Program-made: the position numbers and the translations under genes
DNA from: Sipunculus nudus
Lineage: Eukaryota > Annelida > Sipuncula > Golfingiida > Sipunculidae
Direction: 5' to 3'
NCBI GenBank assembly: GCA_026874595.1
Contig: CM049322.1
Span: 54,825,886 to 54,889,885, forward strand
DNA length: 64,000 bases
Notes under the pieces: generated by a model
The model's database searches: none
Told to the model about the DNA's origin: nothing
The model's input: the letters and a program-made list of their open reading frames with translations, nothing else
Shown here: positions 4,344 through 54,330 of the stretch, piece after piece
How positions within the stretch are numbered: position 1 is the first letter of the stretch
Layout of the letters: each line of letters starts with the position of its first letter

Positions 4344-4866
4344 CTAGAATACGGGTAGTCGACAAGCGACTACGTGTATCCGCCAAAATCAGAGTAGGAC
4401 GGGTTAAGAGAGGCATGGATTGAGTGGCAAGGGGAAATAGAGTTACAGGTGTTACATATTAGAATGGCTGTCTGCCACGTAAACATGATCGTAGGTGGCG
4501 CCACCTGATATATGAACTAGAAACTATCCAAGATGTATACACATGCAAAATTTCAGGTTGAAAGGTCAACCACTGCAGAGATATGTGTGGTTTTATCCAA
4601 CAGCAGACAAACAGATGGACGCTGTGCAAAAATGGCTGCAAATGACGCCCCATTTTTTTGGTATGTTATAAAGCTATCCAAGGGCTACATTTGTGTACAA
4701 ACAATTTTCATGCAGAATTTCAGGTAATTTGGTCAAACCACTGCAGATATATGAGTGATTTTAACCCAAGGCAGACAAACAGATGTACGCTGTGCAAAAA
4801 TGGCTGCAGTTGGCGCCCCAATATTTGGGTATGTTCTAAAGCTATCCAAGGGCTACATTTGTGTGA
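4344..4866 (-). mobile_element. Helitron-like element fragment, 3' end at 4344
   Basis: On the minus strand the 3' end reads as a hairpin with arms GTAGTCG and CGACTAC (4355-4373), then CCGTATT, then CTAG, followed by host T. This is the classic Helitron 3' terminus (hairpin about 10 bases before CTRR, host T). Inside are at least two tandem units with GGCTACATTTGTGT and CTGCAGATAT words, shared with the larger copy at 52903-54330. The 5' end is unclear, so the element may be truncated. Confidence 0.65.
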
Positions 4867-7192: not shown

Positions 7193-7237
7193 GTATGTCC
7201 GATGTGTCAGAGACAGAGAGAATGTGTGTGTCTGGGT

Positions 7238-10200
7238 TAGCCCCCGGTGATACACTGGCATACAGAAGTGAGGGACACGCCAATATGATTTTTGTATTAC
7301 ACATGAAATAAGCTTTCTAATGATATATAACACTCCGCACTTTGTGTAAAATGGATCTCTACCCTGATGCTATTCTGAATTGACCTATTTGAATTAAATC
7401 AGACAATTTTCGTGAAATAACAATGATATAAACTATTTACTGCTCACTTTTATTTTTCTCATGTCTGCATGGAAAATTATTTTAATTGAATTTAAGGGAA
7501 GTTATGCAACTGAAAAAGGTACAACATATATTATGCGACAGGTTTAGATATGTCTTATGATTTCACAAGTATCTGAGTCTGATATCACATTATTGTCTCT
7601 GTGAGTATCAAGGAGGTAAACTAACTTTGGTTAGAGATTCTCTAAACTTGTCCAATGACAACCGTGTTTTTTCTTATCTTTTCCCAAGAAGAGCTCTCAA
7701 AGAAATTCCAAATGCATGAGCTGTTTTGTCTCTCCTCTTTTTATTCGGGAGGCTGACCTGAATACGGAATATTGGGTCAGTATGAGGAAGGGTGGTAGAT
7801 GATTCACGTGCAAACTGCATTTCAAGTTTCATCCTTCTCCCGGCATCCCTCCACAGCTCCCCCTTTTTCTTCTCATTCGGCTCCAAAGCAACTTCTTCTT
7901 CAGTGGCCAGAAGGAACTTATCAATATCCTCGGTACTTGTGAAAGGTCCACCAGAATACTTCAGCTTTTCAAGAATGTTCAACCGTTTCTCCTTCTTAGT
8001 GACTGCCACAGCCTGTTTCTCTGTAAGTTTAGCAGCAAACCTCTCTTTCATTTTCTTGCTCCATTTGAGCTTGATCTCTTGAATAGTAACGGCATGACTG
8101 TGAAAGTGTCGGAATGAATCATCTGAATTCTTCCTTAGCTTCCTGGTGGAATCCAAAATGATACTCCTGCTTACAGGATCCAACTGTCCTAGCTTCTTGG
8201 ATCTGTAGTCAAAGAGGCCACACAGCCTCTCCATTACAAGATTGTGGACTGGTGTGTCGTCTATATTTGAGGCTTGCTTTTCAACAGGGAACTGAGCTTC
8301 AAAACCAGAAAAACCGTAATCTCTCCTCTGACGGCCTAGTACTATTTGCAGTTCAGGCATGATAAAATTAGCCAGCTTTACACACTCATCCATGTGATGT
8401 GCTGCTATTTCTTCTATACAAGAAACAACTGTTGTAGTGTAGCTCCCTTTGACTGCCTTAAGCAGATCAAGAGTCACATCACTGAACCAAGCTGAATCAA
8501 GTTTGAAAAACCTACTTGTAACTGGATCTGACGTTCTGTTGTACATCCCATGATACAGGACCTTCAACCTGTAGTGAGTAGCTCCCTCTGCAATGGTATT
8601 AGCAAATAAAGGTTCCACAAGCTGGATACAAAATGCAGCGAAAACGGTGAATGCAATGTCTAGGTATTCAACTTTGAGGAAATCTCTGACTATACATGCT
8701 AGCCTATTAGTGATGCTTGGGTTTTTGTCCAGCCAAACATCTAAGTATTGCTTGATGTAAAGAATGACAGCACAGGCACGAGACAAGCATCCAAAGCGCT
8801 GATCCTTGTAAGCAAACAAGACTTGCTCAGCATTGTTTTGTTTTAAATGCACAACAATTGCATCATGATAGTTCCATTGTTTGTGCCGGAATTCTGCTGC
8901 CACGAGTCTTAATATAACATCTCATGCTTGTCCAGCTACCGAACCATGTTTGCTGTCAAAATCCAGATCAACCATAAAGTTGTTCATAATGGCCTCCACG
9001 GTCATATCTCTCTCCACTACTGCCAACCTTTTGTTCAGTGTAGAACTAAACCCAAGAGTTGTATGAGTTCCACAGAATAGCTGTCCTTTGGGGTTATCCA
9101 GGTCATACATCACAGCCAGATTTGATGCAAATCCTTTGTTATGCTCCACTGAATCTGTCATGTGTGTGTCAATCAATTGCTCATAGAGCTCAGCGGATGA
9201 CACTCCATCAACTACAGCCAAAATATCGAACATCAGTTTACACTGTTCAGCAATATCTTCCGTTGTCTCCCCACAAACAGGAAAAAGAGGGAGAGGAAAT
9301 GGAACATTCTGACCAATATGAATCCCTGCTCCACCAAACTGGCCAATTCCTTTCTTTGTTGTTGAATCTGTGGCATGGGTTATCATCCGACCTGCAGACT
9401 TTGCCTCACGCACCTCATTTAGCATACAGGCCATCCCCTTTGCTTCAATCTGACGCGCAGCTATTCTCAGATTTCTCTCATGGGGGAGTGTCTCCAAATC
9501 AAAACGATCTTCCTCCTCTTCCAGCATTTTCCACTTTCTTCCAAATAATTCAGCAACTCTGACTAAAGCTTTCATTGATTCTGTTGCAGACAGGCAAAAT
9601 CCTTCTAGATCAGCTAAGCATTCATAAATGTCTGCTCTAACAGTTCTTTCAGAAGTTCTGACATGACGCATTGAGGGAGGCAGAAAATCATCTGGATCTT
9701 CTAAGATCTCCTCAAATTTGCGTCGTTTTACTACATTATCTGGATCATCCTCAACTCGATACTCAGTATCCTCATCTTCGACCATCTTCACATCATTTTC
9801 GACTGACTCAGGAACTAATTCGAGAACATTGTCTGAATCAGCAAAGGAAAACTGTTTCTCTCTTTCAGTCTTCCATTTCTCTGCTCTGTTTTTCTCCATA
9901 ATCTTTCTTTCATTTGCTCCAGACCAGACAGGATCCACACCTGTGTCACATTCCATCCTTCTGTCTGTTCTCTGATCTTCTAGATAAACTTTTTCTTTTT
10001 CTGTCATTTTAACACCCCATTCTTTTTGACACACAACTATTCTTGCAGCATCCTCCGTAGAAACGTCATACAACTTGCCAGCTTTTCTGCAAACTGTACG
10101 TACTTGTCTACTTTTTTTCCAGAAGTTCTTCCTTGGCTTATTCTGTACTTTCTTTTCTGGAATGTACCCCAGTCTTTCTGTATTCGAAAGCGGATGCTGT

Positions 10201-11017
10201 TGATATGGATACAGTAAACTGTATCATGGACGTACTTGCTGTACACTATATCACTTACAATATTAACTGCATCACGGACAGGCATATTTCTTGCCTTGTC
10301 CTCCATGATACCTCTCAATACACCAATAACATCACTATAAAGTGGTAGTTTTGTCGGATTGCAGAACGTCTTGAGAGCAGGAAACACTACATCAGGTGGC
10401 TTTATCTCTGAACCCCGGGTGTTTTTTGCCATTTTTTCAAACTTTACTGCATGTGTTGAAGCAATATGTTCTTTCTATTTTGCTTTTCAGAGGAATACAC
10501 ACTCTATATAACACTTGTCTGATCAGAAGCACACAAAAAGCCACCCTAAACTGCACAAAATTCATAAACTCCCTCATTGCTTGTGTTTTTTTCTTCTTAG
10601 TTAAACATTTAAATCTAGCAGAACAGTTATCAGATAAATAACTAATAAATTAAGAAAGAGAATTTGATTACGTATGCCAGTTGTTACAATTTAGCAAGTA
10701 TATTCACTGTGCGAAATATTTCCCATGCAGAATTCTTAAAGGCTGTATCCTTTAGACCCTAGTCATTTGCATATTTCGAACCTTCACATTTCAGACCAAA
10801 CTACCGAAGCAATATTCAATGTTAGATCATAGGGAAAATAAACACACCATTAGTTCATAATCACGTTTTTGGCATAGAAACATCAAATTGGAATATGACC
10901 AGGGTAGAGATCTATTTTGCATTTACAATGCCTTGTCATATATGGTTGGAAAGGTAAGACTCGGCTGAATATGAAAATCATCTTGTCGATTTGATTTAGG
11001 AATATCACCGGAGGCTA
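7238..11017 (-). mobile_element. 3.78-kb DNA transposon with 7-bp TSD and broken transposase gene
   Basis: Flanked by TCTGGGT on both sides (7231-7237 and 11018-11024). The ends are inverted copies of TAGCCYCCGGTGATA. Diverged inverted repeats continue inward to about 7400 and 10870, with best blocks GATCTCTACCCTG, ATGATTTT and ATATATRAC at matching spacing (82 bp between shared blocks on each side). The interior carries one minus-strand coding region of about 920 residues, broken by one frameshift and one stop. The superfamily could not be assigned: a 7-bp duplication with ~170-bp TIRs fits several DDE groups. Confidence 0.75.
7674..10432 (-). pseudogene. Putative RNase H-fold transposase, broken by frameshift and stop
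   Basis: Three pieces in order on the minus strand: 10432-10037 (131 residues, starts MAKNTRGSEIKPPDVVF), 10073-8922 (383 residues) and 8903-7674 (about 409 residues). Piece 2 contains ITHATDSTTKKGIGQFGGAG (D at residue 236 of the piece), THMTDSVEHNKGF (D at 307) and LFCGTHTTLGF. Piece 3 has YLDIAFTVFAAFCIQLVEPLF, a candidate site for the third acidic residue, then a K/E-rich region with LKYSGGPFTSTEDIDKFL. D..D..C/H..E spacing suggests a DDE/RNase H-like transposase with an inserted domain, which is inference. Pieces 2 and 3 share a frame and are split by one TGA (8922-8924). Pieces 1 and 2 need a frame change near the A-run at about 10086. Similar uncharacterised proteins are, as far as I recall, widespread in invertebrate genomes, but I cannot name the family. 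Confidence 0.65.
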
Positions 11018-11027
11018 TCTGGGTGTG

Positions 11028-11086: not shown

Positions 11087-11465
11087 CAGAGAGAGGAAGC
11101 TATGAATGACTGCATTCAACTGTTAGTTCAACTGAAAGTTTTCTGACAGACATATATAGACAGACAGAGAATATTACTTGCAAGTCTGAACCAACTCGTA
11201 AAAATACCCCAGATCCCAGCACAAGATGAGCAAGCACTGGAAGCTGGCATCATTGCATGTACAGATTTCTTGCTGTTCAGGTCCAGGCAGAAGTTCGCAA
11301 CATTAGACATTTAAAAATGTGATAAAGATCTGACATAAAGAAAGTATTAGAAATTAGACCAAATCAAGCTTGATTTATGTAATGTATTTTTCTTGTCAAC
11401 ACAAGCGACCATTGACTCATCATTCTCAGCTGGTGGATAGAATACTTCAATTGCTTATATATTTC

Positions 11466-13688
11466 GGGAGGGTATAATTCGCTGATCAGCGCGCTGATCA
11501 GCGGTCTGCAGTATAAAACACTGATTAGCGCGCTGATCAGCGACCTTTCAATTAAAGCATTAATTTCAGGCAAAATAGCACCCATCAAGCAACCTTCGGC
11601 TTTTGTGTGATCAAATATGATTAAAAGACACCTTTTTCTACCAGTATTACGTATTTCAAATATATATATATGTTTTTGTGTTAAATTTTTAAACATGAAA
11701 CGCAACCTACCTGCAAGTGACTATTTCACTGATCAGCACCGCTGATCAGCGACTATTCAATCCAAGCATTAATTATTAATATCAGACAAAATAGCCCCCA
11801 TATAGCAACCATCGACTATTATGTGAACAAATGTGATTTGAAGACACATGTTATATAAGTTTTACGTATTTACAAACATACAATACATTTTTTAACGTGT
11901 TACTTATTTTGCATGAAAGCTTTCTACCAACAAATATTTCTCTGATCAGCGAACCGCGCAAGGTGCTCATCGGCTATGATTTACGTATTTCTTGGTTATG
12001 ATCGATACCTGTCATCAGTGATTCTCTATAATGGTAACTTAGAGGGCTCTCAGTTGTTTTACTTATTTCCTGTGAACACCGAATGATTGCCAATACATAT
12101 CGTACCACATACAGTTTACAAATATCTGGTCCCCACCGACCACTCGGAGATATTTCCTGACAGTAGGAGCTAGTGTTGCAGTAATTTGTAAGTAGGTGTT
12201 ACCCGGCCAGATGATAGAAATACTGAGACGTATACTTTGTTTGAATGTATTCAAAAATTTGAATTTATTTACAATATCCTGCAAATATATTTCAGTGAAA
12301 TGCAACTTATGAATCCACAGCAAAATATTGTCGACTGTGTTTTTCTTTTGTTATCGCTAGTATTGTTGAGTATTGTTTTAATAAATTTGAAAGTAGGCAA
12401 CTGGTAAAACAACATGTATGTTGATCAGACAAAAATGAGAGGACATTTACTTAACTGTTTAGAAGAATGTATATTTAGTCCATTTCCTAAAAGAATCCGT
12501 AATAAGATTGACAATTAAATGAAAGGGTCTTTCTACGAAAAACATTTGCCATTTCAGCAGGTATATACAGCATCTGAAAAATAACATCTTAATATTTTTT
12601 ATAGAGTCTAACATGGCGATAAAAATGTAAACTATATAAAATATCTTTCAGCAGAACAGGTTGTTTAATGAAAAATTATAGTTTTGGCTAATTTAAAGCC
12701 CTAATTGTATTATCAATTTACCACCGTTACAGAGTTTAAGCAGTGTTTGAAATTTTTATTTATCAAAGATTAAGCTGGATATTTGCATGCCAATTTCACG
12801 GTCCCGCTTACTTGATTTAGAAAAAAAAATAAGAAAGGTTCACCTGTACGATCTATTTTATTATAAATATATATTTTAACCCTGTAAATTGCGTATTTTT
12901 AATTTTAATTTGTTCCGTTTATATCCTGAAACAAAATACAAATACAACCCATGCACAGAAAGTACAATGCAATGAATAGAGGGAAAATATAGCAATCTTT
13001 CTCGGTCAATAAAAATGTTGGCGATAAAAGCATTTTCTAATATGTTTCTAAGTCATTTTTTTCTTAAATTATGCCTATTTTCAATATATAACGGTGTTCA
13101 AGAAGAAGAACGGTGTTGAATTAAAAAATTAAATGTAATCATTAACAAAATTATAAATTAAATCATGCAGACTTCTTTTATAATAAATCATTGCCGATTA
13201 GCGCCTTTTCAGCGGCAGGCGATTGCGCCGTTTGCTGATAAGCGAAATAGCAGGTGATAGAAAGGTTCCATACATTATATGTAACACATTAAAAATGTAT
13301 TCGTATGTTTATAAATATTAAATACTTACAGAACATGTGTCTTTAAATCACACTTAATAACATAATAGTTGGAGGTTGTTATATTTGGGCTAATTTGCCT
13401 GCAAATAATGCTTGGATTGAAAGGTCGCCGATCAGCGCAGCTGATCAGCGAAAGTCACTGGCAGGTACATTTGTTGCGTTTCATGTAGAATAATAATTCA
13501 CACAATAAAAAAATATATCTAAAAATACGTTATGCTGATAGAAAAGTGTATTTAATCATAAAATAGTCGGAGGTTGCTATATGAGGGCTAATTTGCCTGA
13601 AATTAATGCTTTAAGTGAAAGGTCGCTGATCAGCGCGCTGATCAGCGTTTTATACTGCAGACCGCTGATCAGCGAATTATACCCTCCC
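11466..13688. mobile_element. 2.2-kb long-TIR element (Mutator-like/foldback), 9-bp TSD
   Basis: Begins GGGAGGGTATAATTCGCTGA and ends with the inverted copy; ATATATTTC is directly repeated outside both ends (11457-11465 and 13689-13697). Each arm runs about 500 bp and contains two tandem ~250-bp units rich in the perfect palindrome CGCTGATCAGCG, often as back-to-back copies. The centre (about 12000-13180) is AT-rich with no coding capacity. A 9-bp target duplication with long inverted repeats is typical of Mutator-like elements. With no transposase, this copy is non-autonomous. Confidence 0.8.
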
Positions 13689-13698
13689 ATATATTTCA

Positions 13699-14948
13699 GG
13701 GACTGCCTAAAACGCGTGCACGCCTACGTGCACGCCTACGTGCACTCAGTTTCGCCTGCCTTAGCAAGTGCCTAAATCGCGTGCGGCCGGATTTTGCGGA
13801 CAACAGCGTCTGACTAGAAAAACATTCTTGTGGGATGTGTTTTGATAATTTGTCTGATGGAACTTATTATTATTTATTATATATATATATGATTTATGTT
13901 TATATTATATTTTTATAATTTATGTGGGTATTAACATAAACAGTATTCATCATGAATATTTTTTTCACTGTTCATATGTGGGAAATTATAAAAGAATTAA
14001 CTATTATTATTCATTTGATTTAAATTATTATAAAAGACCAAATTTGATTATTAAATTCATATTGAGAATATAATTATCACTAATAATATTTCTTGGGTGT
14101 CTTTATTCTGAGGAAGTGAACTGAAGCCACATACTGGTTACAACAAAATTATTTACAACAAACACAACATATACAGAAATATGTGATACAATAAATATGT
14201 ACAGAATATCATTACTGTTATAACAGGCAAAAATAAACACAAAGTGGAATATATTATGAAAAACAAATTACTGAGACATATACCAGGTATACCAATCCAA
14301 CTAAAACACTAGCCATTCTAGAATAATTAATATGGCTTTAAAAATAAAAAATTGACCATGTAACAACAAGAACTTGAATGTGAAATATATATTCTTATTA
14401 CATTTTACCCTATTTACATATGTGACAAATTCACCATTTTCTACTAAGTTCTAGATATCCAAGATTACATGAAAAAAGAAACCATTTATCACAACTGCCA
14501 CATTGAACCATTTCAGATATACCGTCAGTTAGTTGTACCCAAATGGACACAATAACTAAAACTTTTTATAAGTGTAAGATCTAAGATCACTATCCCAGAT
14601 AAAGCTAATTTTATATATATTTTTTTACATTTTAATTAAGCAATATATTACAGTTCAGTTATTTTGCAGGTCACTTTAGCGATATGACTATTCCTTATAT
14701 TTTAAATACATACGGCAAAAATGAAATAATAATTAGATCCTTTGATGTTTTGATTGCCTGTGACTGGTTGAGTAAATCATATAGCTTCTGTATTACTATG
14801 GCTATTATTCCAGTGAATGTTTGGCAAAATTGGCATCCACATTTAACATTAAATGGCACCAAACTTCAAAATTTAGACAATTAAGAATTCATGTAAACTG
14901 GTACCTGTCCTATTGTACCGGTACATAACTGATGTAACTATTCCATTA

Positions 14949-15001
<53 letters not shown>

Positions 15002-15691
15002 TCCTGTCAAAATCGGTAGGCTATTATTAATAGATATATAAATTGGGCCATTGCTTTTAACTATAAACAGGCACTTTCAAAATGGTAATGTTTGTCTTTT
15101 AGTTTTTACATCTTTTATTCTACAAGTATTGAATGCATGACGTTGAAGTAGTAGAAAGCCATGGAACTTTGTAAGTAAGACACAAGGTGTCATAATAAAT
15201 TATTAATGGGGTAAATAATACGTAGCATGTTATTACAAAACGATATTTGCAACGCATATACTTACTGGATCATTGCCTCCAAGTATAGTCATTTTCAAAC
15301 ATAATTGTTACATATTTATCTTTCCGTCCGCCCTCTTTGCCATTCAATTAAAAAAATGGACTCCTCAACTGCTTTTTTCCCCCAAGTAAACCTGTTGAAC
15401 CATGCAGTGTTCGTCGCCGTTACTCCCCGCGTCGCGGCTATCCTTCATGCTTGTGACGTACGGCTGTAATTTTCATATTAAAAGTAAAAAAAATATTCAT
15501 GTTATTCCCCGCATAAATTATATAAAGTTCCCTCGGACAAATTAACAAAACACCCCCAAAAATAACTATTTTTCAGGCCAGACGTTGTTGTCCGCAAATC
15601 GGGCCGCACGCGGTTTAGGCACTTGCTAAAGCAGTCGAAACTGCGTGCACGTAGGCGTGCACGCAGACGTGCACGCGTTTTAGGCAGTCCC
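13699..15691. mobile_element. 2.0-kb long-TIR element, 9-bp TSD, ends 59 bp before the COG8 ATG
   Basis: Begins GGGACTGCCTAAAACGCGTG and ends with its inverted copy; TATATTTCA is repeated outside both ends (13690-13698 and 15692-15700). The inverted repeats extend about 120 bp, are CpG-rich (tandem CGTGCACG words) and match at most positions. The interior is AT-rich, with a (TA)n run at about 14952-14996 and no convincing coding region. By duplication size and GGG...CCC ends it is also best read as a non-autonomous Mutator-like element, related only distantly to its neighbour. Confidence 0.8.
14952..14996. repeat. (TA)n microsatellite
   Basis: TA dinucleotide run inside the 2.0-kb long-TIR element. 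Confidence 0.95.
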
Positions 15692-15700
15692 TATATTTCA

Positions 15701-26900: not shown

Positions 26901-29900
26901 AGTACTGTAATAACTTGTGTATAATACAAGGTGATACCTTTCAAGTACTGTTATAATTTGTGTATAATACAAGGTGATACAATATCAAGTACTGTAATAA
27001 CTTGTTCATAAAACAAGGTGATTCCTTATCAAGTGCTTTAATAACTTGTGTATAATACAAGGTAATACTAAACCATGAATGATTCTGATCAGCAGGAATT
27101 GATTTATGGAGAGTCATCAAAATGTAGCTGCAGTATGAGTTGGTGAGAATAAGACATCTTTAAGATTTTTAGCTCAGCTGACTATAAGTCATCTGAGCTA
27201 TAGTCATGGTCCATTGTCCGTTGTCCGTCCGTCTGTCTGTCTTGCCGTCCGTCCGTCTGTCTGTCCGTCTGGATGTCCGTCCGTAAGACTGGCACGTTTC
27301 GACACCGTTGGACCTACAAATCTGAAATTGGGCATACATTTAGATGTCCCTAGAATCTCCTACCATGCCGAAAATTGGGTCAATAGGACTTCGTTCCTTC
27401 GAGATATTAAGGAAAAACCTCAATTTTTTATTAGAAATCTATTTTCACACTTCAGGACTGCCTGATATTAAAACCACTCATCTGGTTTTCTTCATATTTA
27501 CCATAAATATTCCTCTATAAAGTTTCTATGTACATGCCAAATATCAAGTCAGTATTATATAATTTAAAAAAAATTATGGGCCCAAACATAATGGACTTTG
27601 TAAAAAAATCAGGAAGATATTTGGTCACTTAAGACCAAAAGTGTTAAAGGTAGGGACTTTTTTCCTGAAATACAACTTTAATTAATCAAAATTAAATTGT
27701 ATACCAAAAAATAGATCAAAATCTGGTAAATTTTTTAAATATTGGCAAAAATATAAAATTGATACCTTAAATTTTGCCCAACTTTGGCCACGGCACATTT
27801 TTTTCCTGTAAGTACTGTGGATTTAATTTTCACAGCATGTATACATAAGGATTTAATCTGTTAAAATCTGAAATTTGAAAATAAAAGCTGCAAAATTAGG
27901 CTAGTTATTGATTTTTTTTGGAGGCTCTTGTTGTATTCCCTTACATTGTCAAGCAGTCCACTTTGATGACTGTAGGTCATTCAGTGCACATCTCTATGCT
28001 CCTCAGGCTGTTGGCATAATTTTAGATGTCCCCAAAATCTCCTACCATACCAAAAATTTGGTCATTAGGACTTCGTTCCTTCGAGATATTAAGGAAAAAA
28101 ACTCCATTTTCCATAAAAAAAGCCATTGTTACACTTCAAGGCTGCCTAATATCAAAACCACTGATCTGTTTTTGATTGTATTTAGTATTCACTTTCTTTA
28201 ATACATTTTCTACGAACATACCAAAAGTTAGGTCAGCATTGGGTATTATTTTTGAAGTTATGGGGCAAAACATAATGCAATTTTTTAAAAAAATCAGGAA
28301 ATATATTTACTCACCTAACATGAGAATTGCTGAGCCTAGAGACTTTTTTTCAGGAATATAACTTTATTTAATCAAGATTCAAGTGTTTACCCAAAAATTA
28401 GATCTGAATTTTGCAAATTTTTCAAGTTATTAGCATAAATAAAAAATCAATACCTTAAATTTTTGTCCAACTTTGGCACTGTTGATTTAATTTTCACAGC
28501 ATATATACATAAGGATTTAATCTTTTAAAATCTGAAATTTCAAAGAAATTGATTGGAAAGAATAGCTTTTATTCATGTTTTCATACACCATGTCAAGTGT
28601 TGTTTACATCTAGCCCACCTAGTAGTACAGCCTTCACTTGCATTATGTAACCCACCCCAGGCAGCTTGCCTTGGGTCAGCTTGGCCACTACCAGCAGGCT
28701 TCCCCTCTGCCCTGCACCCCCCCCCCCCCCCCCAGCAGGTGCATAAACTAGATGAATGTTATTATTTTCTGTATTTGATTCATTCTTATTCTAGGCTATG
28801 CTACACTTTAGATTTTGTATTTTACCACCAGGTTTACAGTGATTAAAGTGTATATTTAATTGTGTCCACAAAGTGGTGTATTGCTATGAAAGTGTGGATG
28901 TTCATGAGATAAGTAATTCCTTACTTCAGAGGAGTAAAAACTTCACCAGGTGTGAAATTAAGTATTAATTCCAGTAATAAATTAAAACTGGGATAGTAAT
29001 TAGCACAATGATATTGTTTGTCCCTCATTCAACCAACAGTGTGTTTACTTTATTTGAAAAGATGTTTTATTTTATCAAATTTACTGAATCTTTTATTTTA
29101 TTTTGGTGAATAAAATTAAGCATGTACTGAAAACTCCAATGTGCAAAACTTTTAATAGTGATTCAAGGAATATTCTTGTAGATGCCATGTTGTGGCATTA
29201 TTTTCTTTTAAATTCAGTTTAAACATTTATGATTCAAAAATAATAAAATATATGTGTATGCATAATATGACCCAATATGAGCTACACTCTGGATATATGA
29301 TGATTGCAACTTTTTCAACAATTCTAATATTTTAACTTATAGTTTCAGTTTTTTACTCTGTATATATAATGATTGCAACTTTTGCAACAATTCTAATATT
29401 TTAACTTATATTTTCAGGTTTTTTTATTAAAAATTTATAAAACCTGTTAATAAAATAATGATTCAGATATAAACTTCTTAATGGAAAAAGTGGATATGCT
29501 TAAAAAAATAGGATTATATATAAACTTAAATGCATTATTCCCTTGAAAGTGAAATAAAGGTATTAGTCCATTCTGTCAACTTGCCTGTCCATCTGTAAAT
29601 TTTCATATGCATCATATGTATCTCAAAACTTTTACTATTTTCTTCATGACAGTCTTGTCAGAGTATAAATTGCAATCATATATTTAGAACTTTACTGTAA
29701 CCAAGTAGGAGGGCCCCTTTCCTCTTAGCTTTTCATATTCTTATATAAATGAAAAACATTACAATAGAATATTTCTACATCCACCTTCGTGCTGCCCTCA
29801 CTTTTCCCTTCTTCGAACCCCATCCCAAAGTCAGCCTCAGTAAGCAAGAACAAGATGAATCAGATATATTCATACTTAAATATTTTGTATAACTATTTGT

Positions 29901-32900
29901 CCATAGGTACCTATGTACATGCCAGAAATTATGTCAGTATTGTGTAATATGTATACATAGTGGGCATCACAATAATGTACCTTGTCAAGACTAAAGAGAT
30001 ATTGTGTCATACAGTCACAAATTCATGAATCACTTCATCAGCATAGTTAATCATAACATCATATCTGTCAAATTGAAAGCTTGCAGAATACCATACACTT
30101 TAGATCCTTCAACAAATAGCCTTATCATCATTCTACTACTGCTAATTACTGCTGTCATTGCATTCATATTTGCTCAAATATATCACAATTTTCAACCCCT
30201 CCTAAATAAATAAAAAATAAACCACTATATTTGACTCTATTAATCCATCAGTCAGGTAATTTCATTTATCATTTACTCACATATAACATTAAATTCCTTT
30301 ATAATAGCCCAACATGTCCATGATATTCATAAGCTTTATCGACTTGATATAGTATCACAGTGGAGAAACATTTATAGTCCAACCATTATCAGCTGAGCGC
30401 CGTGACCCATGGGTCCCTTGTTTTTTTTAGCTTTGCTGACTATAAGTCTTCTGAGCTATAGTCGTGGTCCATTGTCTGTCGTCCGTCCATCTGTCTGTCC
30501 GTCCGTCTGTCCGGATGTCCATCCGTAAGACTGGCACGTTTCAACACCATTGGACCTACGAATCTGAAATTCGGCATACAGTTAGATGTCCCCAAAATCT
30601 CCTACCATGCCGAAAATTGGGTCAATAGGACTCCGTTTCTTCGAGATATAAAGGAAAAACCTCAATTTTTTATTAGAAATCTATTTTTGCACTTCAGGAC
30701 TGCCTAATATCAAAACCACTCATCTGGTTTTCTTCATATTTACCATAAATATTACTCCATATAGTTCCTATTTACATGCCAGAAAGGCATAAGTCAGTAT
30801 TATTTAATTTAAAAAAGTTATGGGCCCAAACATAATGGACTTGGTAAAAAAAATTAGGAAAGATATTTTGTCATTTAAGACCAAAAGTGTTAAAGGTAGG
30901 GACTTATTTCAGTAATACAACTTTAATTAATCAAAATTTAATTGTATACCAAAAATTAGATCGAAATCTGTTCAATTTATTTATATATTGGCAAAAATAT
31001 AAAATTGGTACCTTAAATTTTGCCCAACTTTGGCCACGGCACGTTTTTTTCCTGTAAGTACTGTGGATTTAATTTTCAGAGCATGTACTCATAAGGATTT
31101 AATCTGTTAAAATCTGAAATTTGAAAATAAAAGCTGCAAAATAAGGCTAGTTATTGAATTTTTTTAGGCTCTTGTTGTATTCCCTTACATTGTCAAGCAG
31201 TCCACTGTGATGACTGTAGGTCATTCAGTGCACATTCCTACCCAGGCTGTTGGCATAATGTTAGATGTCCCCAAAATGTCCTACCATACCAAAAATTGGG
31301 TCATTAGGATTTCGTTCCTTCGAGATCTTAAGGAAACCTCCGTTTTCCATAAAAAAAAGCCATTGTTACACTTCAAGGCTGCCTAATATCAAAACCACTG
31401 ATCTGTTTTTGATCATATTTAGTATTCACATTCTTTCATACATTTTCTATGAACATACCAAAAATTAGGGTATTATTTTGAAGTTATGGGCCAAAATATA
31501 ATGCAATTTTTAGCTCAGCTGACTGTAAGTCATCTGAGCTATAGCGATCACTCTTTGTCCGTCGTCTGTCTGTCCGTCTGTCCGTCCGTCCGTCTGTCCG
31601 TCCGTCTGTCCGTTAACCTGGCACAAATCGTAACCGCTGGACCTAGAATCTTGTAACTTGACATTCTGAGAGGTCCATGAAAAATCTCCTTGGATACCAG
31701 AAATCAGGTCTCTGTTACCCATATCCTTTGAGCTGTGGGGCCCCAAAGTACCCCCCAGAATAGTAAAAAATTTCATACAAAATCTTCAATATCTCATTAA
31801 CTACATCACTGATGGTCATGATTTTTGCATACATGTTGATCATGAGATGTTCCATTAGTTCCTGCAGACTGGTGGCACCACCTGAATTTTTCGATTTTTT
31901 TTTAAATTTTTTCTTTATTTTTGAGACCTTTTAAAATGTGGACATCTGTTAACAGGGCACAAATTGTAAAGACTGGACCTAGAATCTTCATTCTTGACAT
32001 TCTGAGAGACCTATGAAAAGTCTCCATGGAAACCAGAAATAAGTTCTCTATTACCCATATCCTTCAAGCTATGGGGCCCCAAAGTACCCCCCAGAATAGT
32101 GAAAAATTTCATACAAAAACTTCAATATCTCATTAACTACATCACTGATGGTCATGATTTTTGGCATACATATCAATCATGAGATGTTTCATCAGTTTCT
32201 GCAGACTGGTGACGCAACCTATATTTTTCAATTTTTTACAAATTTTTTTCTCTATTTTTAAGACTTTTAAAAATGTGGACATCTGTTAACAGGGCACAAA
32301 TTGTTAAGACTGGACCTAGAAGCTTAATTCTTGATCTTCTGAGAGACCTATGAAAAGTCACCATGGAAACCAGAAATTAGGTCTCTGTTACCCATATCCT
32401 TTGAGCTATGAGGCCCCAAAGTACCCCCCAGAATAGTGAAAAATTTCATACAAAAACTTCAATATCTCATTAACTACATCAGTGATGGTCATGATTTTTG
32501 GCAAACATATTAATCATGAGATGTTTCATCAGTTTCTGCAGACTGGTGGCGCCATCTGTATTTTCTCTATTGTTTACGATTTTTTTCTCTATTTTTGACA
32601 CCTTAAAAGATGCAGTCATCTGTTAACAGGGCACAAATCATAACAACTGGACCTAGAGTCTTCTATCTTGACATGCGGGGAGGCCAATGAAAAGTCTCTG
32701 TGGAAACCTGAAATTAGGTCTCTGTTACCCATAACCTCTGAGCTATGGGGTTCTGAAGTACCCCCCTGAAAAATGAACATTTGATACAAAAACTGAAATA
32801 TCTGAACAACTAATGCATTGATTACCATGATTCTTTGCATGAATATTGATCATGGAGTGTTTCATCGGTTTCTGCAGACTGGTGGCGCCACCTGTATTTT

Positions 32901-35900
32901 TCGATTCTTTACAAATTTTTTTCACTATTTTTGAGACCTTTAAAGATATGAACATCTGTTAACAGGGCACAAATCATAACAACTGGACCTAGAATCTTCA
33001 TTCTAGAAACACTGGGAGACCCATGAAAAGTCTCCATGGAAACCTGAAATTAGGTCTCTGTTACCAATATCCTTCATGCTATAGGGCCCCAAAGTACCCC
33101 CCAGAATAGTCAAAAATTTCATACAAAGAGATCATGAGATGTTTCATCAGTTTCTGCAGACTGGTGGCTCCCTAGAAACCTGGAATTAGGTCTCTGTTAC
33201 CTATATTCTTCAAGCTATGGGGCTTGTTACAAATTTTTACATTTTTTTTTCTCTATTTTTAAGACCTTTAAGGATGAGGTTATGTGTCAACAGGGTACAA
33301 ATTGTAACAACTGGACCTAGAATCTTCATTTTTGTCATGCAAGGAGGCCCATGAAAAGTGTCTGTGGAAACCTGAAATTAGTTCTCTGTTTCCCATATCC
33401 TTCAAGCTATAGGACTCCGAAGTATCCCTGAGAATAATGGACAATTTGATACAAAAGCTGAAGTATCTGAACAACTAATGCAGAGGTCACCATGATTCTT
33501 TGCATGCATACTGATTATGGAGTGTTTCATCAGTTTCTTCAGACTGATGGTGCAACCTATATTTTATTAAATTTTTTCGAATTTTTTTCTCTATTTTTGA
33601 GACCTTTAAGGATGCTGTCATCTGTTAACGTGGCACAATTTGTAACAACTGGACCTAGAATCTTCATTCTTGTCATGCAAGGAGGCCCATGAAAGTGTCT
33701 GTGGAAATCTGAAATTAGGTCTCTGTTACCCATATCCTTCAAGCTATAGGACTCGGAAGTATCCCTCAGAATAATGGAAAATTTGATACAAAAACTAAAG
33801 TGTCTGAACAATTAATGCAGAAATCACTATGATTCTTTGCATGGATGTTGACCATTAAGTGTTTTTATTAGTTTCTGCAGACTGATGGAGCCACCTGTAT
33901 TTTTTTTACAGTTTACGCATTTTTTCCCATATTTTGAGATATATAAATACAGAAACAATCTTGGCTTATTCTTTTATCTGTTTGATGCTTCAGTTGAATG
34001 GGTATATACTTCAGATGATAAAATTTCCTTTTGCAAATTTCTTCCCAGTCAGCTGAGCGTCATGACCCATGGGTCACTTGTTAAAAAATCAGGAAATATA
34101 TTTACTCACCTAACATGAGAATTGCTGAACCTAGAGACTTTTTTTCAAGAATATAACTTTATTTAATCAAGATTCAATTGTTTACCCAAAATTAGATCTG
34201 AATTTTTCAAGTTATTAGCATAAATAAGGCCATCCTTAAAAAGTTCTGTGTTGGGGCTAACCCGGCCAGTCGTGATTTTTGGCTGTGGCTGGAATTTTTT
34301 TTTACATATCTGCAAATTAATATTTTTATATGATCTGCCGCAAGCACCTGGGCCCGTAAAAATCTGCCTTCATGTGCTAGAAAAATAGTCCTTCTATTAC
34401 ATTTTTAGATGCACTTAATTTCCATAATGAAAGGTATTACCCAACGTCGCCGATCGTTTAATTTGAGCCCTAACAATTAGTCAGGTTGTGCCTATATATA
34501 TACACGTGGAACGATCGCTACACTCATGCGCGAGAGTAGAAAAACTGCTGGGAAAAAGCCATCAAATTTCATTGTTCTGGCAAAACAGGCTGAAAAAAAA
34601 TATTGAGCAATTAGAAATGGTTCTTATTTGATTTCAAATAAAGCGGAAGCTTACCGCTGTCGCATTAACTGATTAAATGAAAGTTCTCTCGACATTCATA
34701 CTGTCAACTGACCAATGTTGGCATTTAAACCATGTGACACGTTGATTTGCATAAACACGTGCCTGACCCACGCAAACATTCTTGTGATTGTCACGCGTCA
34801 TAGCCAGAGAGCCAATAAGAGGTCCGTAGTAAAAGTTCACCCCATATGACTTCATTCATCACTATTTTGGCGGGAAAATGTTCACTGACATTGTGTCGCT
34901 TACGCTGGTTATAATTTTTCAGCAACACTCACGGTGGCACCGTGAGTAGGCCTATATCAAGCAAATGAAGCTGGCCTATTTAATGGAATCTGCAACTGAT
35001 GATGTGTAACGCATGATCTCCACAAATCAGATGTTTGGTATTACAAGAATTGCGTGATTTCGTCAGTTCTGTGGCAATCATGACAGGGTTTTGTGAGGTG
35101 TCTGACGCATCGTTTCTACAGGCCACAGCTGATTAGAACAGGCATAACATATAAGCGACTGTATTTTTTTTTTGGATGTGTTTCTTTTTAACTGCCTTTG
35201 TAAATTTATTTCATTTTATTAATAGCTTTTATAATAAACAGATATTTCCTGACCGTATGGCATTTCTTTTTTACACGTAGACGAGATAGAGATCAACATT
35301 GCTCGTTCAGTCATTAATTACAGAAAAATACTAGAATATCAGCAAAAGCTGACAAAAGCCCTCAGCCAAAAGAGCAGTATTTATGGGTGGTAACAGTAAC
35401 AAGTATTCATGTAATATTTGTTCTCACATGGATGTATATCTGTACATATGTCTTTTGTTCAAGTTGTGAATTGGAACTAGAGAGGTATGAACTTCGAAAG
35501 TCTGGCCCCAGTCTTTGTGAGTCATGCAGCACTTTCGAGATCATCAAGGCCAATGACCATTCAATATTCCAAATAAATCCATCCAGTGGTTCCTTAGAAA
35601 TAAGCTCCTAAGTTTTTTTCTATTATAAGCTCTGTGACCTTGGGTCATCCATCTTGGAACTTGACCGAGATTTTGTTGATATGTATCAGCACCAAAGAAA
35701 TGAAATTTCTGTGTTGAATACTTTTGGAGATATCCTCCTCACATGGTAAATGTTAACACACGCCGGTTATTTTCTATAATTCACTCTTAAACGTAGAGAA
35801 ATAAGTCAAGGTCACCCATCTTCGAACTTGACCAAGATTTTGTTTGTATATACATCAACACCGAAGAAATAAAATCCTAATCAGGGTACCGACATCCAAT

Positions 35901-38900
35901 ATATGGTTTCATCTTTCAAAAAGTACAGTTTTACATATATTTATATAAACATTTTATATATTCTACTACCTTATTAGGCACTGACTATTACTAAAGAGTT
36001 CATTCATTACCGTCCTTCTTAATTATACCTCTTCACTTGCAAAGGAAATCTCAAACTGCACTCATTCCTACAATTCTGGCACTCGCATACAACACAAAAT
36101 AAAATTGTCTGCAAATTCATGTGAGATCCAGAGCAAGGCTTACAGGCCTAATGCTAACCAGTGCAATGGGATATACATCAGTTATAATGCTTCCATGATA
36201 ACATGCTTGACCATTATTGGAAAAGTACTTGATAACTTTTCAAATATGTGAATGTTTGACATGTACATGTTCAAAGCATGTACTAAAACATTTTAAACCC
36301 AAGTACAGGATTTTAAGCCTGTAATAAAACACAAAATCTGTTCAGAGATACCTTGTTGTGCATGTTTCAATGGTATCAAGGCAAGGAATGAATGGAGTAC
36401 GGGTATGTTATTTGACATAAACCTCGCATATGCTAATATCCAGGGAAAAAGGTGTAGTAAACTCCAGATCCTCCTTTAAAAAAAATATTTTTTTCCTCCC
36501 TACCTGATGACTTTTTTGGACCAATGTTAGCCCCAACACAGAAATTTTTAAGGATGGCCTAAAAAATCAATACCTTAAATTTTGTCCAACTTTGGCAATG
36601 GCACATTTTTTCCCTGTAAGCACTGTTGATTTAATTTTCACAGCATATATACATAAGGATTTAATCTTTTAAAATCTGAAATTTCAAAGAAATTGATTGG
36701 AAAGAATAGCTTTTATTCACGTTTTCATACACCATGTCAAGTGTTGTTTACATCTAGCCCACCTAGTAGTACAGCCTTCACTTGCATTATGTAACCCACC
36801 CCAGGCAGCTTGCCTTGGCTCAGCTTGGCCACTACCAGCAGGCTTCCCCTCTGCCCTGTACTCCCTCCCCCCCCCCCCCCCCCCCCCCCCCCCGGATGGT
36901 GCATAAACTAGATGAATGTTATTATTTTCTGTATTTGATTCATTCTTATTCTAGGCTATGCTACATTTTAGATTTTGTATTGTACCGCCAGGTTTACAAT
37001 GATTAAAGTGTACATTTATTTGTGTCCACAAAGTGGTTTGTTGCTATGAAAGTGTGGATGTTCATCAGATAAGTAATTCCTTACTTCAGGAGAGTAAAAA
37101 CTTCACCAGGTGTGAAATTGACTATTAATTCCAGTAATAAATTTAAACTGGGATAGTAATTAGCACAATGATATTGTTTATCCCTCATTCAACCAACAGT
37201 GTGTTTACATTATTTGAAAAGATTTTTTATTTTATCAAATTTACTGAATCTTTTATTTTATTTTGGTGAATAAAATTAAGCATATACTGAAAACTCCAAT
37301 GTGCAAAACTTTTTAATAGTGATTCAAGGAATATTCTTGTAGATGCCATGCTGTGGCATTATTTTCTTTTAAATTCAGTTTAATCATTTATGATATAAAA
37401 ATAATAAAATATATGTGTATGCATAATATGACCCAATATGAGCTACACTCTGGATATATATTATGATTGCAACTTTTGCAACAATTCTAATATTTTAACT
37501 TATATTTTCAGTTTTTTTTTTATTAAAAATTTATAAAACCTGTAAATAAAAAAAATGATTCAGGTTATAATTTCTTAATGGAAAAAGTGGATATGCTAAA
37601 AAAATAGGCTTATATATAAACTTAAATGCATTATTCCCTTGAAAGTGAAATAAAGGTAATAGTCCATTCTGTCCACTTGCCTGTCCATCTGTAAATTTTC
37701 ATATGCATCACAGTATCTCAAAACTTTTACTGTTTTTCTTCATGACAGTCTTGTCAGAGTATTAGTTTGCAATCATATATTTAGATCTTTACTATAACCA
37801 AGTTGCAGGGCCCCTTTCCTCTTAGCTTTTCATATTCTTATATAAATGAAAAACACTACAATTGAATATTTCTACATCCACCTTCGTGCTGCCCTCACTT
37901 TTCCCTTTTCCGAACCCCATCCCAAAGTGAGCCTCAGTAAGCAAGAACAAGATGAATCAGATATATTCATACTTTAATATTTTGTATAACTATTCGTCCA
38001 TAGGTACCTATGTACATGCCAGAAATTATGTCAATATTGTGTAATATGTAGACATAGTGGGCATCACAATAATGTACCTTGTCAAGACTAAAGAGATATT
38101 GTGTCATACAGTCACAAATTCATAAATCACTTCATCAGCATAGTTAATCATAACATCATATCTGTCAAATTGAAAGCTTGCAGACTACTATACACTTTAG
38201 ATCCTTCAACAAATAGCCTTATCATCATTCTACTACTGCTTATTACTGCTGTCATTGCATTCATAGTTGCTCAAATATATCACAATTTTCAACCCCTCCT
38301 AAATTAATAAAAAATAAACCACTATATTTTACTGTATTAATCCATCAGTCAGGTAATTTCATTTATCATTTACTCACATATTACATTACATTCCTTTATA
38401 ATAGCCCAACATGTCCATGATATTCATAAGCTTTATTGACTCGATATAGTATCACAGTGGAGAAAATTTATAGTCCAATCACGATCAGCTGAGCGCCGTG
38501 TCCCATGGGTCCCTTGTTCTTAATTAGTCACTGCCTAATCAATAGAATACACCGTTATTCTGGTACATGTAATTCAGAGCTGAGTCACTGAGTTCTTACA
38601 CTGTCTATTTATAGGTCTCTGACTTTCTCCACATGTTGGAGACGGACCTCATCCGAGGCGTCGGTGGACGGATTGACTCTCTGCTGGGACAGTGCATGTA
38701 CTTTGGGTTGTCATTCAGCCGAGTCGGGGCTGACTTTCGAGGGCTCCTGGTTCCAATATTCCAAAAGGCTGCCAAGTCTGGATTCATGACGCTCATAACT
38801 GAAGCAAATGAGAAGTACGTATACGTTGAAAAAATCAGTATTTTTATGATATAAATTATACTTATTGTAAAGTGTGTTTATGTAAATATTTAATTATATA

Positions 38901-52902: not shown

Positions 52903-54330
52903 TCCACCAAAACGAAGTTTTGCGCATACTATGTTTTTGACCGGGTTCGCCGCCCGCCGCCGCCGTCCCCGCGTTCGTTTCCGAAGAACTCCTCCGAGAC
53001 TACTGGACGAATTTTTCCGAAACTTACACCAATTATCAGGTCACATGTGAACCAATTTGCGTTGACCTCTAAACTTTCCTCGCTGCCCAGAGTCCATTTG
53101 TGCGTCTGTTTCCATGCATAAACCCACATATCTCGGGAACCGTTTGACCGATCAGGAAAAAAAATTGTACAAATGTAGCCCTTGGATAGCTTTATAACAT
53201 ACACAAACAATGGTGGTGCCACCTGCAACCATGATTGCACAGTGTCCATATGTTCATCTGCCTTGCGTTAAAATCACTCATATTTCTGCAGTGGTTTAAC
53301 TAATTCACCTGAAATTTGGCATGCGTATACATCCTGGATAGCTTTCTTGATTTTATTACAGATGGCGCCGCCTACATTCACGTTCACGCTGCAGACATCT
53401 AAGCTCATATCTCGGGAACCATCTGACCGATTAGGCCAAAATTTGGCATGTGTATAGATCTCAAATAGCTCTTTATCATACGCAAAACTGGTGGCGCGAC
53501 CTGCAACCATTTTTGCACAGCGTCCGTCTGGTAGTCTACCATAGGAAAATATCACTCATATCTCGGCAGTGGTTTGACATATCTGCCTAAAATTTTGCAG
53601 TTTTATACATCCTGGACAGCTTTCCTGATTTTATGACAGGTGGCACCACCTACATTCTTGTTAACGCTGCAGACATCCAAGCTCAAAACTCAGGAACCGT
53701 TTGACCGATTGGGCCAAAATTTTGCATTTGTATAGATCTCACATAGCTCTTTTTCATACACATAACTGGGGAGGCCACCTGCAACCATTTTTTGCACAAC
53801 GTCCGTCTGTTTGTCTGCCTCTGTAGTGGTTTGACATAACTGCCTAAAATTTTGCAGGTTTATACATCCTGGACAGCTTTCCTGACTTTTATGACAGGTG
53901 GCGCCAACTACATTGTAGTTTACGCTGCAGACATCCATATCTTGGGAACCGTTTGACCGATTGGGCCAAATTTTTGCATGTGTATAGATCTTATATAGCT
54001 CGTGATCATACACAATACTGAAGGGGCCACCTGTTACCATTTTTGCACAGCGTCTGTCTGTTTGTCTGCTGTGGGCTAAAATCACTCGTATCTCTGTAGT
54101 GGTTTGTCATTTCTGCCTAAACTTTTGCATATGTATACAACTTTGACAGCTTTCTGGATTTGTGGTAGGTGGCGCAACCTACATACACATTTCAGCTACA
54201 GACATCCATGTTAATATGCAACTTACCTCACTCTATTTTCCCCATGCCACTCAATCCATGCCTCAGTTCACCCGTTCCACTCTGATTTTGGTGGATACAA
54301 GTAGTCTCTTGTCGACTACCCGTATTCTAG
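52903..54330 (+). mobile_element. Helitron-like element, 1.4 kb, with tandem core
   Basis: Starts A|TCCACCAAAACGAAGTTTTG and ends with hairpin GTAGTC...GACTAC (54301-54319), CCGTATT and CTAG followed by host T. A subterminal inverted repeat links the two ends: GTATCCACCAAAA at the 5' end and TTTTGGTGGATAC at 54287-54299. The core holds about five diverged ~220-bp units (GACCGATTGGGCCAAAATTT, TGGTGGCGCCACCTGCAACC, ACGCTGCAGACATCCAAGCT). No Rep/helicase gene, so non-autonomous. Confidence 0.75.

Follow-up and report, generated by a model that had tools for sequence, protein, structure and literature searches.

The stretch of DNA described here, termed the window, comprises 64,000 nucleotides of the Sipunculus nudus genome (assembly GCA_026874595.1, contig CM049322.1, positions 54,825,886–54,889,885 of the forward strand). 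Positions 7231–11024 of the window are a decayed, low-copy DNA transposon with terminal inverted repeats (TIRs), filled by a single gene on the minus strand; its features are collected in Table 1. The element is flanked by an exact target site duplication (TSD) of 7 bp, TCTGGGT. This cannot be extended, as the preceding bases are G and A and the following bases T and G. The TIRs, TAGCCYCCGGTGATA, are identical at 14 of 15 positions, and the inner arms align further inward with a local score of 42, the maximum for 1000 first-order resampled pairs being 34. No 8-mer occurs above chance as a subterminal repeat in the element. The initial annotation, made from the sequence of the window, had described a complete element with exact TCTGGGT duplications and long, diverged TIRs, and this description is borne out.

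A seeded scan of the window gave 290 near-perfect inverted pairs of 15-mers (at least 14 of 15 positions matching, all four bases present, arms 0.5–6 kb apart). Only three of these pairs also have exact 7-bp flanking repeats, i.e. the 7231–11024 element and two neighbouring elements, and in both neighbours the true duplication is 9 bp.

The gene extends from an ATG at 10432 to position 7674, about 920 codons, and needs no introns. It is interrupted twice, once by a TGA and once by a change of frame, and consists of pieces of 145, 433 and 415 codons, the last two of which share one frame across the TGA. The longest stop-free run, 433 codons, compares with 221 or fewer in 400 order-2 resamples. 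Because of the frame change and the TGA, the element in the window is a broken copy. The single large minus-strand protein of about 920 residues that had been predicted is thus present, with two interruptions added, and its translation has all four of the motifs quoted for it.

Relatives were sought in the whole assembly (1.43 Gb, 153 contigs). At the DNA level, a search in which 40 of 75 candidates were scored shows at least 45 matches, and the window copy alone is full length. At the protein level there are 20 matches, distributed over nine places, namely the window and eight further sites that encode relatives. The protein of one relative (L038), when used as the query, adds two fragments, one at 71.3 Mb on C1 and one at 25.2 Mb on C6. 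Twenty genomic stretches were retrieved. Both ends were recognised in six insertions: the window element, L034 (1920–7869), L035 (1818–7655), L037 (1864–6767), L038 (3423–7822) and L042 (194–6897, treated as one element). The remaining retrieved relatives show one recognisable end or none.

Exact 7-bp TSDs flank four of the six two-ended insertions, on four contigs: TCTGGGT in the window, GTTTAGG (L034), GTCATAG (L037) and GTTTTAG (L038). A strict 7-bp scan detects a single element in L037 and a single one in L038; 100 resamples of either sequence gave none. The ends of L037 and L038 are TARGGGTKGGTGTTA, although their proteins are only about 31% identical to that of the window. The end pattern TAGNNNNNGGTGWTA is common to the copies with small departures, e.g. 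TAA at one end of L037 and CAGTG at one end of L034. The initial annotation had proposed to test whether other copies share the ends and the TSD length of the window element, and the outcome largely bears it out: the ends are close to TAGNNNNNGGTGWTA, and the 7-bp length is exact in four insertions and inexact in two.

L034 has the ends of the window subfamily, an exact 7-bp TSD and a length of 5.95 kb. It displays only short N-terminal protein matches, and its interior accordingly differs. L034 may be a non-autonomous carrier, or else a nested insertion. A segment of about 75 bp from the right end of the window element also recurs in the genome with approximately 80% identity. Eight of these copies (L045–L052) were compared, and the possibility that they are miniature inverted-repeat transposable elements was rejected, as the homology runs beyond the end of the element in all eight. 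This segment therefore seems to be an old fragment carried within a different repeat.

Protein libraries gave no placement of the gene product. Pfam yielded no credible match for the window pieces, the whole protein or six aligned members of the family; the middle piece shows a stray match to DUF5063 (E-value = 0.09) and the whole protein none. The same Pfam library recognises Hermes (hAT; 4e-25) and the P transposase (DmTNP), as well as the P and hAT elements of this genome. The only NCBIfam match has an E-value of 0.13, PHROGs gave no match, and the best PDB matches (E-value = 0.07 by sequence, 1.5 by profile) are not credible. The statement in the initial annotation that the motifs cannot be assigned to a named superfamily therefore holds for Pfam, NCBIfam, PHROGs and PDB. 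No relative was found in prokaryote genomes, in phages (tblastn with the middle piece), in plasmids (tblastn with the C-terminal piece) or in viral contigs, where four loci match over 12–14 residues only.

The protein pieces of seven distant relatives (L037–L043) display 28%–34% identity to the window protein over 312–700 residues. They were compared in a window-anchored alignment and six members were aligned with MAFFT; conservation was counted over the seven distant rows, each only where it covers a position. Residues D286, R476, F477, N661 and E665 are each present in 6/6 rows, and C384 and H387 each in 5/6. A C-terminal GGPFTS block stands out in the MAFFT alignment of six members, and one Cys, C484, is invariant there.

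The proposed D286, C384xxH387 and E665 follow the order found in transposases of the C/DxxH group. In the window protein D286 and D357 are 71 residues apart, the CxxH motif begins 27 residues after D357, and E665 lies 308 residues after it. The corresponding values are 68, +17 (CxxH) and +324 in Hermes, 73, +36 (DxxH) and +228 in DmTNP (PMC8230255), and 67, +25 and +518 in Kat1, whose second Asp is given variously as D377 and D328 (PMC4763223). Because order and spacing resemble those of the three proteins, D286, D357 and E665 are read as a putative catalytic triad of two aspartates and a glutamate (DDE). For the DDE catalysis put forward in the initial annotation, which stays at the level of prediction from the sequence, D286 and E665 thus stand in every distant row that covers them, and the second Asp is less well conserved.

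The best explanation of the locus, with a probability of about 0.75, is a decayed low-copy cut-and-paste transposon, its gene coding for an RNase H-like DDE transposase that belongs to the C/DxxH group and is not covered by any Pfam model, those for hAT and P included. The mode of working is most likely that of a C/DxxH DDE transposase. The enzyme would have an RNase H-like fold that carries, between CxxH and the final acidic residue, a large insertion of about 278 residues, and would bind the TAGNNNNNGGTGWTA-type ends and the inner arms. It would then excise the element, i.e. move it by cut-and-paste rather than copy-out, and join it to a target cut with a stagger of 7 bp, from which repair would produce the 7-bp duplication.

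Several observations weigh against this explanation. Two insertions, L035 (with an altered right end) and L042, possess both ends and no exact TSD, their duplications matching at 4/7 and 5/7 positions. The first scan for ends, in seven relatives, allowed duplications of 6–9 bp and gave other pairs too among the matches listed, many of them in AT repeats; the L037 and L038 pairs were picked by the end pattern, and in L038 the chosen pair was second in the ranking by 20-base match. D357 is kept in 4/7 distant rows and the neighbouring D352 in 7/7. D352, the better conserved of the two, may be the actual second Asp. Moreover, of the 90 acidic positions for which five or more distant rows have coverage, 13 are invariant, so that neither D286 nor E665 stands out, and the counts are not independent, coming from a small number of distant copies that are interrelated and for the most part decayed. 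In L033, a closer copy that is badly decayed, D286, D357 and H387 are lost, and C384 and E665 are kept. Single members also show stray Pfam matches, the best (E-value = 0.0051) being to a viral nucleocapsid model in 1/6 members; the stray Pfam matches are read as chance.

The end pattern and the 7-bp stagger are common to distant relatives in the same genome, and the transposon is thus more than a single odd insertion. From them annotators can look for further copies by end pattern and TSD length, also where the interior is foreign, as in L034. It is quite possible, at somewhat less than even odds, that the family is already present in Repbase or Dfam under a name that Pfam does not cover, and it would then be an ordinary family. 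A C-terminal GG-x-F/W motif of similar form occurs in uncharacterised invertebrate proteins, in agreement with this. A search of the open-licence literature (peptide and 7-bp TSD queries; titles and the starts of abstracts) displayed no description of the element or its end pattern among the matches listed, which is a weak counterargument, Repbase being outside that scope.

Table 1. Features of the transposon at 7231–11024 (window positions; catalytic residues are proposed)
Feature	Position	Strand	Remark
Left TSD, TCTGGGT	7231..7237	.	exact repeat
Left TIR, TAGCCCCCGGTGATA	7238..7252	+	
Left diverged inner arm	7278..7383	+	GATCTCTACCCTG at 7354–7366; local alignment 42 vs 34
C-terminal transposase piece	7674..8921	-	same frame as middle piece
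GGPFTS	7952–7935	-	in C-terminal piece
Proposed E665	8231–8229	-	in C-terminal piece
R476F477	8798–8793	-	in C-terminal piece; conserved
Middle transposase piece	8922..10223	-	ends at in-frame TGA, 8924–8922
Proposed H387	9065–9063	-	in middle piece
Proposed C384	9074–9072	-	in middle piece
Proposed D357	9155–9153	-	in middle piece
Proposed D286	9368–9366	-	in middle piece
N-terminal transposase piece	10037..10474	-	start ATG at 10432; neither CxxC nor domain match
Right diverged inner arm	10883..10988	-	GATCTCTACCCTG at 10900–10912; local alignment
Right TIR, TAGCCTCCGGTGATA as read on minus strand	11003..11017	-	
Right TSD, TCTGGGT	11018..11024	.	exact repeat

The two neighbouring elements lie to the right of the transposon. 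The first (11466–13688) has the ends GGGAGGGTATAATT, long inverted arms of 126 nt with 89% identity, and an exact 9-bp TSD, ATATATTTC, at 11457–11465 and 13689–13697. MULE/MuDR elements usually have TSDs of 9 bp, and by this criterion the first neighbour is called MULE-like; for the 7231–11024 transposon, with its TSD of 7 bp, MULE/MuDR was rejected. The second neighbour (13699–15691) has the ends GGGACTGCCTAAAA and an exact 9-bp TSD, TATATTTCA, at 13690–13698 and 15692–15700, and sits at the edge of the right duplication of the first. Elsewhere in the window are a tandem array at 31612–33939 (unit 337 bp, about 6.5 copies; partial relatives lie at about 39.2 and 39.8 kb), an array at 53186–54184 (unit 278 bp) with an inverted relative at 4542–4864 (unit 168 bp), and a direct repeat of at least 300 bp (29670–29969 and 37767–38066) with 96% identity and a spacing of 8.1 kb.

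No named superfamily is assigned to the element. TSDs of 7 bp have been published for hAT7, Kyakuja, Dada (6–7 bp) and Galileo, and a length of 7 bp is therefore by itself no mark of novelty. Kolobok elements have a 4-bp TTAA TSD, varying from 3 to 5 bp in KolobokP (PMC9587614), and were rejected since the TSDs found here are 7 bp and are not TTAA. The Kyakuja (KDZ) families described have a 7-bp TSD, which is alike, with CA..TG ends and no TIRs (PMC12730594); the transposon in the window has TAG..CTA ends with TIRs. Dada elements have TSDs of 6–7 bp, a transposase of the C/DxxH group, small RNA genes as targets and a spacing of 176 residues between the second Asp and the last Glu, and have introns except in the families of Perkinsus (PMC3706591). 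The TSD range and the C/DxxH group are shared with Dada, whereas the spacing of 308 residues and a gene that needs no intron are not. With respect to target, no tRNA and no Rfam match at the gathering score was found in the window, nor a tRNA in the joined flanks (examined at the window site only). Dada was also rejected on its zinc fingers (N-terminal CCCC and C-terminal CCHC), as neither of the two window translations contains a CxxC. As far as tested, target, fingers, TSD or ends thus exclude Dada, Kolobok, Kyakuja and MULE.

The comparisons with P and hAT concern the branch to which the element belongs, and these alternatives, like prior cataloguing, exclude neither the C/DxxH transposase proposed above nor each other. 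That the element is a divergent member of the P superfamily appears distinctly improbable. Galileo, a P relative, reportedly makes 7-bp duplications (PMC4168063, PMC2775673), an ExxxG motif starts at the last acidic residue in both proteins (E665/G669 in the window protein, E531/G535 in DmTNP), and L038 has, by eye, an FD where DmTNP has F443 D444. The local alignment score to DmTNP is equalled by only 2/300 shuffles with BLOSUM45 and 5/300 with BLOSUM62, and the hhalign score of 34.9 is above those of all 500 shuffles (top 32.7). However, the BLOSUM45 alignment leaves the catalytic residues unpaired, and HMMER places DmTNP below 6/300 shuffles. A profile of the P insertion domain (six rows, some short, including the P elements of this genome) scores 17.8, with 5/150 column shuffles higher. 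The initial hhalign and pairwise scores are undone by the HMMER and P-profile controls and are not used as evidence. TNP-like_GBD has 16 matches in the genome, none of them at the element, and THAP has no match. The element thus resembles P in the C/DxxH group, in ExxxG and in a 7-bp TSD as in Galileo; it differs in having CxxH rather than DxxH, in lacking a THAP or TNP-like domain match, and in an insertion of about 278 residues compared with about 190 in P.

A divergent hAT element lacking a BED finger, its C-terminal ER motif hAT-like and its insertion all-alpha, is unlikely, though less so than a P element. The hAT dimerisation (PF05699), Hermes DNA-binding and BED models have no match in the window pieces or the six aligned members (Hermes control 4e-25), and the hAT matches listed for the genome (150 of 667 candidates scored) all lie away from the element. 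The local score to Hermes is no better than that of shuffles, being equalled by 187/300 (BLOSUM45) and 37/300 (BLOSUM62), and this link was rejected; the hhalign score is 17.6 against a shuffled maximum of 24.4 (n = 60). The window protein has no W two residues past the first Asp, and its RF motif is 120 residues after the second Asp, whereas W319 of Hermes is 71 after. The 7-bp TSD compares with a hAT criterion of 8 bp (5–7 bp in sublineages), and hAT7 of rust fungi has a 7-bp TSD (PMC12730594). The TAG that begins the ends is compatible with the hAT end pattern. In summary, the element differs from hAT in having RF rather than RW, placed further downstream, and in showing no significant alignment. 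It resembles hAT in its TIRs, in its one gene, in having CxxH rather than DxxH after the second Asp, in the long insertion before the last Glu (a spacing of 308 residues from the second Asp, compared with 324 in Hermes and 518 in Kat1), and in the basic residues R674, K676 and K677 beyond E665, which are placed roughly as in Hermes and Kat1.
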